This document shows, one piece after another, positions 3,164-43,437 of a DNA stretch of 64,000 nt. The stretch's first letter is position 1. Every line of letters starts with the position of its first letter. The stretch is taken from the NCBI GenBank assembly GCA_022828125.1, contig JAJEJD010000020.1, positions 248,001 through 312,000 of the forward strand. The letters run 5' to 3'. The position numbers and the translations under genes are program-made. Source of the DNA: a bacterium. GTDB taxonomy: Bacteria > UBA8248. The notes below the pieces were generated by a model. The model had not been told where the DNA came from. It saw nothing but the letters and a program-made list of their open reading frames with translations, and did no database searches.

Positions 3164-3838
3164 TCAGTGTGCAATCCCCGAATACCTATATAATTGGCGG
3201 CGAATTATAAAGAGTTCGACCTCGCGTGGCAATAAATGCCGTATGGAGGAAGACGCCCTTATGCACTGTCTGATCCGGGTGGCCGAAATGTCGACTTCAG
3301 TAATCGGAATGAATTTTATGACCCGTTCATTGTCCGCAAATTTAATTTCACGTAAGAACTCATCGAAGCAAGAACCCGGTTCAATTTCTCGGATCACCTT
3401 GAGAATCGCTTCTATATATTCTGCCGTATTTTGATTTCCTCTCAAGGTAACAGCAAAACTGACGGCGTTTAACACCTGTTTGGGCTCGTACCATGTACTC
3501 AACTCAAGAAACGCATCCGCACCGATGATGAAAAACATTTCATCTTCATCAGAGGTCGTTCTCGCCAGTTCCTTCAAAGTATCTAGAGTATAAGTTGGCC
3601 CTCCCCGCTCTACTTCAACGGGGTCGCATACATACGAGGAATAACCCTCCAAAGCAATTCGGACCATTTCCAGCCTGTCAGCCGCTGAGGCGACTTCATC
3701 TTTTGGCTTATGAGGCGGCAAGGCAGACGGTATGAACCTGATTTCATCAAGCTTCAGCGCTTTACGCACCTCTTCGGCGGAGCGGAGGTGCCCATAGTGA
3801 ATCGGGTTAAATGTCCCGCCTAAAATCCCGATACGCAA
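3164..3838 (-). CDS. nadD: Nicotinate-nucleotide adenylyltransferase
   Basis: NadD adenylates nicotinate mononucleotide in NAD biosynthesis. The 224-residue protein starts MRIGILGGTFNPIHYGHLRSA, carrying the GGTFNPxHxGH nucleotidyltransferase motif, and ends with the ISATRIRQ (ISSTxIR) motif. Length is normal for the family. The start codon is TTG at 3838 with AAGGAG 6 nt upstream. proB ends 22 nt upstream and rsfS follows, which is a very common bacterial proB/obg/nadD/rsfS neighbourhood. Confidence 0.95.
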   Translation of the reverse strand: MRIGILGGTFNPIHYGHLRSAEEVRKALKLDEIRFIPSALPPHKPKDEVASAADRLEMVRIALEGYSSYVCDPVEVERGGPTYTLDTLKELARTTSDEDEMFFIIGADAFLELSTWYEPKQVLNAVSFAVTLRGNQNTAEYIEAILKVIREIEPGSCFDEFLREIKFADNERVIKFIPITEVDISATRIRQCIRASSSIRHLLPREVELFIIRRQLYRYSGIAH

Positions 3839-41389: not shown

Positions 41390-41827
41390 ATGAGTTTCTA
41401 CAACTGGGACATGCTCCCCTTGAGCCACGACCGCCCCGGCGTCGCGCACAGGCGGATTTTCGGCGACAACATCCAGATGCAGCACCTGATCACCGAGCCG
41501 GGCGGCACGCCGTCCAAGCTGCACAACCATCCCGACCACGAGGAGTTCTTCTACATCCAGGCGGGCGAGTGGGAGTTCACGCTCGAAGACGAGGTGCGGC
41601 GAATCGGGCCGGGCGACGTGGTGCACGTCAAGGCGGGTGCGATGCACACCCTGAAGCTCGTGAGCGACGAGCCGGGGATGGCGCTCGAGGTGTTCTACCC
41701 GATGTGGAACCCCGAACTCGCCGAAAACAAGGAAGATTTCACGATAGACGCCATCAAGGGCCGCATGGAGTTCGCCGAAGAACCCGACGAGATGAACCGG
41801 GGCCGTCCTCCCGGACACGGGGAGTAG
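41390..41827 (+). CDS. Cupin-domain protein
   Basis: This 145-residue single-domain cupin has metal-binding motif 1 as KLHNHPDHEEFFYIQAGEWEF (HxHx-E) and motif 2 as GPGDVVHVKAGAMHTL. Such proteins can be small dioxygenases, isomerases or ligand sensors; no more specific guess is justified. It lies between pepA (divergent) and a repeat/terminator region. Confidence 0.8.
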   Translation: MSFYNWDMLPLSHDRPGVAHRRIFGDNIQMQHLITEPGGTPSKLHNHPDHEEFFYIQAGEWEFTLEDEVRRIGPGDVVHVKAGAMHTLKLVSDEPGMALEVFYPMWNPELAENKEDFTIDAIKGRMEFAEEPDEMNRGRPPGHGE

Positions 41828-41828
41828 T

Positions 41829-41868
41829 GCCCTCCCTTCGATACGCGGCTTCGCCGCTACTCAGGGTG
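41829..41868. repeat. REP-like CCTTCGATACGCGGC...CTCAGGGTGA copy
   Basis: Same family as 35247-35354 and 36068-36107, directly after the cupin stop codon, 6 kb from the others. Confidence 0.75.
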
Positions 41869-41967
41869 AAGAAGGAAGGAGAACTTCCTCGCTACCGGGA
41901 AAGAGGGGGAGGGCTTCGACGCTGTCGGGGGAAAGAGAGTCTCCCCGCCCCTCTTCCAAAAACGCGC

Positions 41968-42008
41968 AAAAAAACAGGCGGCGCCCGTCGACGCCGCCTG
42001 CTGTTTTT
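41968..42008. terminator. Bidirectional Rho-independent terminator
   Basis: A 9-bp perfect stem CAGGCGGCG (41975-41983)/CGCCGCCTG (41992-42000) has an 8-nt loop. It is flanked by seven A residues on the left (U-run for the minus strand) and TTTTT on the right. It can end the cupin transcript (plus) and the mini-gene transcript (minus). Confidence 0.85.
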
Positions 42009-42052
42009 GAATTTCCCTCAATGTCCCGTTTCAGGTAACACCAAGGGGCAGT

Positions 42053-42148
42053 TTAGGGTTTTTTCAAAACCCTCTTCCGGTGGTGAGCCGTTTTCAGAAC
42101 CCTCCGGAGAGATGTGTTGTAGGCGGTTACTATCAAGTTTCTTACCAT
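42053..42148 (-). CDS. 31-residue basic small protein with its own promoter and terminator
   Basis: The peptide of 31 residues starts MVRNLIVTAYNTSL and ends with a strongly basic RRVLKTAHHRKRVLKKP-type tail. The ATG at 42148 is preceded by a very strong ribosome site (GAGGAGG, 6 nt spacing). A consensus-grade promoter lies at 42188-42216 and a terminator at 41968-42008. The complete promoter-RBS-ORF-terminator unit supports expression. No family is recognised. Its DNA contains two related pieces (TTTTCAAAACCCTCTTCCGG and TTTTCAGAACCCTCCGG), giving repeated [RK]RVLK in the protein. It could also be a structured sRNA. Confidence 0.55.
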   Translation of the reverse strand: MVRNLIVTAYNTSLRRVLKTAHHRKRVLKKP

Positions 42149-42187
42149 GACAGCCCTCCTCTTGCTACTTGCGATTTGTACTCCCAA

Positions 42188-42216
42188 ATCCTAGCAAAGG
42201 CCCGAAATCGTGTCAA
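42188..42216 (-). promoter_or_regulatory. Strong sigma70 promoter of the small-protein gene
   Basis: On the minus strand a perfect -35 TTGACA (42211-42216), a 17-nt spacer and -10 TAGGAT (42188-42193, 4/6) are present. The predicted start of transcription is about 30 nt upstream of the ATG at 42148. Confidence 0.75.
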
Positions 42217-42330: not shown

Positions 42331-43437
42331 CTACGCCTCGATGATGGCGGAAACCACGCCTCCGCCCACCGGCCCCTGGTGGAAGACGAGCCCGGCCGAG
42401 ACGTAGACCGCCGGGTCCTGCACCACCGACGCGATGACCGCGTTCGCCACCGCGCGCACGGGCCGCGTGCCCAGAACCGAATCGGTGAGCAGCGTGACGC
42501 GCTTGCCCAGAAGCCTGCCGTCCCACGGCGCGCCGGCTTTCGCGAACGCGTGCACCACCCTGTTTAAGTCCTCCGCACCCGGCAGGCCGTCGAAGGCGAG
42601 CCCTGCGTTTCTGAGCGCCTGCCTCACGGCGTCTGCGTCAATCAGGTGCTGCATCACCGCCCGGCCGATCTTGTAACGGCTCACCGATTGTGAGGAATTC
42701 GCCAACACGACGACTTCCGAGCGCATGAGCTCCACGCCCGCCGAGCAGGAGATCATTTCCGAATACAGATCGCCCCGGCTGCACACGTCGGATATCTCGA
42801 ACGAATCGCGAGGGATCTCCCCGATGCCCACCGCAGCGCCCAGTGCCGAGCAGCCGTTCGAGAGGCTCATCGAGCGCGTGGTGTCCGTGCTCACCACCTT
42901 CTTGCCGCGCGAGGCCGCGTCGTTGATGCGATCGGACGTCAGGAGCGGACACTTCACCTGCACGTAGCCCACGTCATCCAGTGAATCCACGCCCGCCTTT
43001 GCGAGCGCCTCCGTCGCCGCCTCGGCCACGAGGTCCACCTGCGCCATCGTTCCCAACTCCTCGGGCAGAAGCTCACGCGTGAAGGCGACCCCCATGGAGA
43101 GGCGCTTCTCGCCGGGGCTCTCGGCGTCGCCCACGTCCGTCTTGGAAATGGCCACCGCGTGGGGGCTCATGATCCCCTCGCATCCGCCCGACATCACCAT
43201 GGCGCACATGCCCTGCACCTCGGCGCGGGAGAGGCCCAGCTTCTCCATCATGTAATCCTCGAAGGAATGGAGCGCGTAGGGCCTCGAATAGTCGTTCACC
43301 CGGCCGTTGCCCTCCGTCTTGGCGATGATGGCCTGAATGTCCGCCGCCTGAATGCGGCCTTCCGCCACCGCTTCCGCAAGGCCCGAGACGTCCTCGGGTC
43401 CCGACATCTGAAACTTCACCACCTGGGTATCAAACAC
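42331..43437 (-). CDS. Ring-opening amidohydrolase (cyanuric acid hydrolase/barbiturase family)
   Basis: This 368-residue protein of the AtzD/TrzD/barbiturase family opens s-triazine or pyrimidine rings. The family has three structurally related repeats each giving a Ser-Lys dyad. Candidate segments here are IIAKTEGNGRVNDYSR and CAMVMSGGCEGIMSPH (unit 1), QVKCPLLTSDRI and LANSSQSVSRYK (unit 2), and the C-terminal unit with FHQGPVGGG. Length is normal. The start is GTG 43437 with AAGGAG 9 nt upstream. It follows an amidohydrolase gene by 48 nt on the same strand, suggesting sequential steps. Cyanurate versus barbiturate activity cannot be read by eye. Confidence 0.88.
   Translation of the reverse strand: MFDTQVVKFQMSGPEDVSGLAEAVAEGRIQAADIQAIIAKTEGNGRVNDYSRPYALHSFEDYMMEKLGLSRAEVQGMCAMVMSGGCEGIMSPHAVAISKTDVGDAESPGEKRLSMGVAFTRELLPEELGTMAQVDLVAEAATEALAKAGVDSLDDVGYVQVKCPLLTSDRINDAASRGKKVVSTDTTRSMSLSNGCSALGAAVGIGEIPRDSFEISDVCSRGDLYSEMISCSAGVELMRSEVVVLANSSQSVSRYKIGRAVMQHLIDADAVRQALRNAGLAFDGLPGAEDLNRVVHAFAKAGAPWDGRLLGKRVTLLTDSVLGTRPVRAVANAVIASVVQDPAVYVSAGLVFHQGPVGGGVVSAIIEA

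Follow-up and report, generated by a model that had tools for sequence, protein, structure and literature searches.

Do the promoter, ribosome binding site, short reading frame and terminator that lie within some 250 nt of DNA from an uncultivated bacterial lineage form a genuine small-protein gene, a regulatory RNA, or both? The question arises from the initial annotation of a 64,000-nt stretch (the whole of which is hereafter called the window), where a self-contained mini-gene encoding a basic peptide was proposed. The public relatives of the host, whose genomes were assembled from metagenomes, carry the labels Nitrospinota, Nitrospinae or Candidatus Tectomicrobia and, guided by PMC10839748, we infer that its GTDB lineage lies close to Tectomicrobia; judging from isolate names, some of these relatives would be associated with sponges.

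Layout and surroundings of the mini-gene

The complete mini-gene occupies ~250 nt of the minus strand (42216-41968) and comprises a sigma-70-type promoter, a Shine-Dalgarno (SD) sequence, a 31-codon open reading frame (ORF) and a terminator, all four of which were found at the positions first assigned to them. The -35 hexamer TTGACA (42211-42216, minus strand, as for all features of the unit) is the same in six congeneric genomes and is separated by a 17-nt spacer from TAGGAT (42193-42188), which forms part of an extended -10 element, TGC-TAGGAT (42188-42196). The SD GAGGAGG (42155-42161) lies 6 nt 5' of the ATG (42148) and is identical in eight of eight homologues. The ORF (42053-42148, including the stop codon TAA) encodes MVRNLIVTAYNTSLRRVLKTAHHRKRVLKKP, in a frame kept in the homologues; the peptide had been described as rich in Arg, Lys and His, and indeed contains 5 Arg, 4 Lys and 2 His, that is, 11 basic residues among 31. 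The unit ends in an intrinsic terminator (41968-42002), composed of a GC-rich 13-bp stem with a 4-nt loop (42002-41973) and a T run.

The initial annotation also held that elements this close to consensus are rare elsewhere in the window, a statement which stands only in part. In the 64 kb, 10 or more of the 12 hexamer positions match at five promoter-like sites, and so the hexamers of the mini-gene promoter alone are not unique; the extended -10 TG, however, is found in this promoter and in no other of the five. Across the 3.9-Mb genome the pattern TTGACA-N14-TGN-TANNAT has two sites, and the reversed control none. Within the window GAGGAGG occurs twice at 4-9 nt 5' of a start codon, while the 13-bp stem of the mini-gene terminator is the longest among 19 terminator-like matches in the 15 kb scanned. 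In our assessment, the functional status of the mini-gene is founded on conservation rather than on the match to consensus.

Two other promoter-like sites were recorded. The best hexamer pair of the window (TTGCCA-17-TATAAT, 11 of 12 matches) is located at 3232 on the minus strand. The second genomic site with the extended pattern (G000:C7:18286-18314, minus strand, equivalent to L111 1286-1314) lies ~270 bases 5' of an ORF beginning MKELGLSRRKLLRNAALGTAALALPVS, a Tat-like signal, and its spacer contains a AGGGGAACCCT inverted repeat which could be an operator; downstream of this promoter neither a tRNA nor an Rfam RNA nor a comparable mini-gene was found.

Upstream of the mini-gene and on the same strand lies a gene for a cyanuric acid amidohydrolase of the AtzD/TrzD family (42331-43437, minus strand), which exceeds the NCBIfam equivalog cut-off. 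Downstream, a cupin gene (41390-41827, plus strand) is convergent, and directly past the terminator no co-directional gene was recognisable in the window or in g6, the second genus described below. The genome has a second AtzD/TrzD copy, 43% identical, at G000:C23:138113-139195; enzymes of this ring-opening amidohydrolase type are unexpected for this uncultivated lineage. The segment that separates the mini-gene terminator from the stop codon of the cupin gene (41840-41960) varies strongly in both length and sequence among congeneric genomes, in a manner that looks like the uptake of short insertions or repeated rearrangement. A conserved small membrane-like protein ending in WEKYLG or similar (L077 621-1070, L078 1875-2240) is encoded near the cupin in g6 and several other genera, at the place where AtzD stands in the window genus.

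Conservation in two genera

The whole unit is present at the same site in six of seven congeneric genomes. The remaining one, G004, is 79% complete, and its assembly may simply miss this region, since the neighbouring cupin and a close AtzD orthologue are absent from it too. Within the genus, identity to the window reaches 93-97% in the promoter, 94-100% in the 3' UTR and 97-100% in the terminator; for the ORF the nucleotide identity is 97.9-99% with four genomes and 87.5% with G002. Outside both ends identity decays (5' of the promoter it is as low as 68%, in G002, and past the terminator it is 20-70% over 60 nt in the genus), and thus constraint runs from near the -35 hexamer to the terminator. 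The five closest genomes differ in the ORF by synonymous changes only, the peptide being 100% identical in five genomes, and the G002 peptide (MVRRLIVTALNTNLRRVLKTAHHRKRVLKKP) retains 28 of the 31 window residues, with 3 changes. Only 1 of 14 4-fold silent sites is variable in the mini-gene ORF, against 106 of 257 in two flanking genes (Fisher p = 0.008). Such frozen silent sites fit a constraint at the RNA level; high expression could contribute to the pattern or explain it instead.

With the window peptide as the sole query, a protein search at E <= 1 missed the orthologues from g6. With a DNA profile, two further copies were located in this genus (G011 and G013; E about 1e-4), both adjoining the cupin orthologue, which is again convergent. 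The orthologous peptides have 32 aa (G011, MANGMMMAPTMKIVRKVLKAPFGRKRVLKNPE; G013, MARGMMMAPTMGSPKKVLKAPSGQKRVLKHPD) and align with the window peptide at 39% identity, with no gap inside the alignment. Across both genera the core that does not vary reads VLK-x5-KRVLK-x-P, its basic motif form being [RK]VLK-x5-KRVLK-x-P. The g6 copies are equipped with promoters of the form TTGAC(T/G)-17-TATATT/TATACT and with an SD that matches that of the window, and their GC-rich terminators sit roughly 100 nt farther on, leaving a longer 3' UTR.

Promoter, SD, frame and terminator are therefore conserved as one unit in both genera, which upholds the proposal of a self-contained mini-gene. The initial annotation had further reasoned that homologues with promoter and terminator kept and the frame broken would favour an sRNA. 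No such case was seen: the frame is intact in eight of eight homologues, and the SD at proper spacing and the transcription signals are kept along with it. Given the synonymous-only changes and the diverged, alignable orthologue with its own signals in a second genus, the mini-gene is, on this comparative evidence, a real and previously unrecognised small-protein gene under selection. Two simpler origins were also considered: a chance ORF is ruled out by the conservation of the unit, and a non-coding sRNA with an accidental ORF by the intact frame in all homologues.

How widely is the mini-gene distributed? When the 18 genomes of the phylum, which belong to one family, were all searched by profile, no further copy emerged at E <= 0.05, and cupin orthologues in other genera have no recognisable mini-gene alongside where the contig extends far enough. 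Over about 85,000 species genomes the protein-core pattern gave nine matches, six of them belonging to the mini-gene family. Judged by these searches, the mini-gene is confined to two genera, both from a single little-known lineage that would in part be associated with sponges. Three matches were rejected as false, L104 for its long and unrelated frame, L107 and L109 because theirs are very short; weak DNA matches in other genera (L011, L012, L016, L017, L019) were unrelated sequence from which the unit is absent; and a viral origin was rejected, as neither profile nor pattern found the gene in viral contigs. Pfam holds no family for any of the three mini-gene peptides scanned, and NCBIfam, PHROGs and PDB sequence searches with the mini-gene peptide gave nothing significant, the best PDB resemblance being a non-significant one (E 0.2) to a short part of the eukaryotic ribosomal protein L34.

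Structure of the transcript and the peptide

Two hairpins, in addition to the terminator, can be drawn in the transcript. In the first (42126-42155), the stretch from the end of the SD to the A of the AUG (42155-42148) pairs with codons 5-8 (42135-42126). On an ungapped, ATG-anchored alignment, 97.5% of the cells of its 8 pairs are paired, and two neighbouring pairs differ between genera by compensatory changes, one from C-G to U-A and the other from U-A to C-G. The helix, the best among the 630 possible 7-bp helices of the region, is lost when its partner is shifted by one or two columns. When genomes are folded singly, their minimum free energy (MFE) structures have most of the SD within the outer portion of the stem. 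Single-sequence folds of the start region are of unremarkable stability (z about -0.1 to -2.5), and in G003 the short start segment, folded alone, has an MFE structure other than this hairpin. We conclude that the SD and the start codon can be sequestered in a hairpin in both genera, on few independent changes, the compensatory ones coming from two lineages only.

The second hairpin, found by folding (CCCUUGGUGUU...GACAUUGAGGG; 42015-42047), begins a few bases past the stop codon in all lineages, has the same position in G011 and G013, and reaches z of about -3 in genus g1 folds. Within the 3' UTR, whose other parts differ too much in length between genera, covariation was scored for this hairpin; the 6-pair core is 100% paired and contains 1 compensatory pair, with covariation not above the shuffle control.

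As for the protein, AlphaFold predicts one helix for the window peptide (pLDDT 75) and a weak beta hairpin for that of G011 (pLDDT 62). The APFG/APSG turn favours a beta hairpin in the g6 peptides.

Possible functions and relation to known systems

With a probability of roughly 0.45, we favour a monocistronic gene for a basic, RNA-binding, lineage-specific accessory mini-protein, with the start hairpin as the gate to its translation. The strong autonomous promoter would produce a short transcript (about 220 nt) at a high rate, so the transcript is presumably abundant. The start hairpin would gate ribosome entry, and the protein would thus be made upon its opening, whether by a trans-acting factor, by temperature or by its own product. 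The basic core, with two VLK segments around a turn (APFG/APSG in g6), probably binds RNA, as suggested by its charge, by the repeated basic-hydrophobic pattern and by the autonomy of the gene; the target would most simply be rRNA or the peptide's own mRNA. The small nucleic-acid-binding protein suggested in the initial annotation is thus a plausible product.

Might the transcript also act as an RNA? As a dual-function RNA comparable to SR1/SR1P and VcdRP, it would encode the peptide and serve as a base-pairing or protein-binding sRNA through the 3' hairpin and terminator. An sRNA-like length with its own promoter and terminator, the nearly frozen silent sites of the ORF, the near-identity of the 3' UTR in the genus and a post-stop hairpin placed alike in both genera all agree with such a role. 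Yet the 3' UTR differs between genera in sequence and length, the hairpin excepted, and because it is not conserved outside the hairpin no persisting seed sequence is seen. The covariation result for the post-stop hairpin argues in the same direction, as does the Rfam scan of the window, in which no family attained threshold and weak matches fell mostly on the mini-gene terminator; moreover, the RNA-level constraint is explicable by translation control and transcript stability. We hold this dual role to be possible, on balance doubtful.

The product could otherwise be a small constitutive ribosome-associated or nucleoid protein, the RNA structure then serving stability and initiation without a regulatory role. 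Its basic composition, the strong extended promoter and SD, the lack of a co-transcribed partner and the non-significant L34 resemblance would suit such a protein. Nevertheless, an occurrence in two genera of an 18-genome phylum is unlike that of core ribosomal proteins, and an SD and AUG enclosed in a conserved stem are odd for a purely constitutive gene, which makes this explanation unlikely. A more elaborate scenario, rather improbable in our view, is a new phylum-specific family in which the basic peptide binds its own start hairpin, closing an autoregulatory loop, while the same RNA acts in trans.

A secreted or membrane-active cationic peptide (leaderless bacteriocin-like) or a small toxin would likewise be short, cationic and, as in the window genus, possibly helical. 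However, no obvious immunity or export gene adjoins the mini-gene in the window or at the two g6 loci, the g6 peptides contain proline and glycine, there is no long hydrophobic stretch, and a stable single copy is conserved at one site, so that we consider this very unlikely. Finally, a short ORF followed by hairpin and terminator is leader-like, but a leader peptide or attenuator that regulates an adjacent gene is scarcely credible, being contradicted by the convergent orientation of the next downstream gene, the cupin, in both genera.

Whichever function applies to this gene, for which a hairpin-gated, RNA-binding accessory protein is our preferred reading, the case illustrates that a genuine small gene which had escaped recognition in an uncultivated lineage can be found by reading raw sequence. 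What it contributes is an orphan family of small proteins whose genes carry RNA structure of their own, in a 250-nt unit readily moved to a laboratory strain for testing; the general view of gene regulation stays unchanged.

How does the mini-gene compare with known systems? The dual-function RNAs SR1/SR1P of Bacillus and VcdRP of Vibrio (PMC8501984, PMC8672173) are alike in having a short transcript with its own promoter and terminator and a very small encoded protein, but share no sequence homology with it; the SR1 covariance model (RF02376) scored 23.4 bits on the mini-gene against a gathering threshold of 45 bits, and on the terminator part only. RNA binding has been reported for CcaF1, a small arginine-rich DUF1127 protein (PMC10253847); DUF1127 proteins and the mini-gene peptide are both very small and basic, whereas the motif differs and Pfam gives no match. 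Similarly, bL34, bL36 and bTHX resemble the peptide in small size and positive charge, but it has no Pfam, NCBIfam or significant PDB match to them and is itself confined to one lineage. In RNA thermometers and autoregulated ribosomal-protein leaders, as in the mini-gene, the SD and AUG lie in a hairpin with compensatory pairs; here, in contrast, the pairing partner is inside the coding sequence, and no Rfam thermometer or leader reaches threshold. While no named family is supported, the mini-gene, as read from its sequence, resembles a dual-function RNA or a structured small-protein mRNA.
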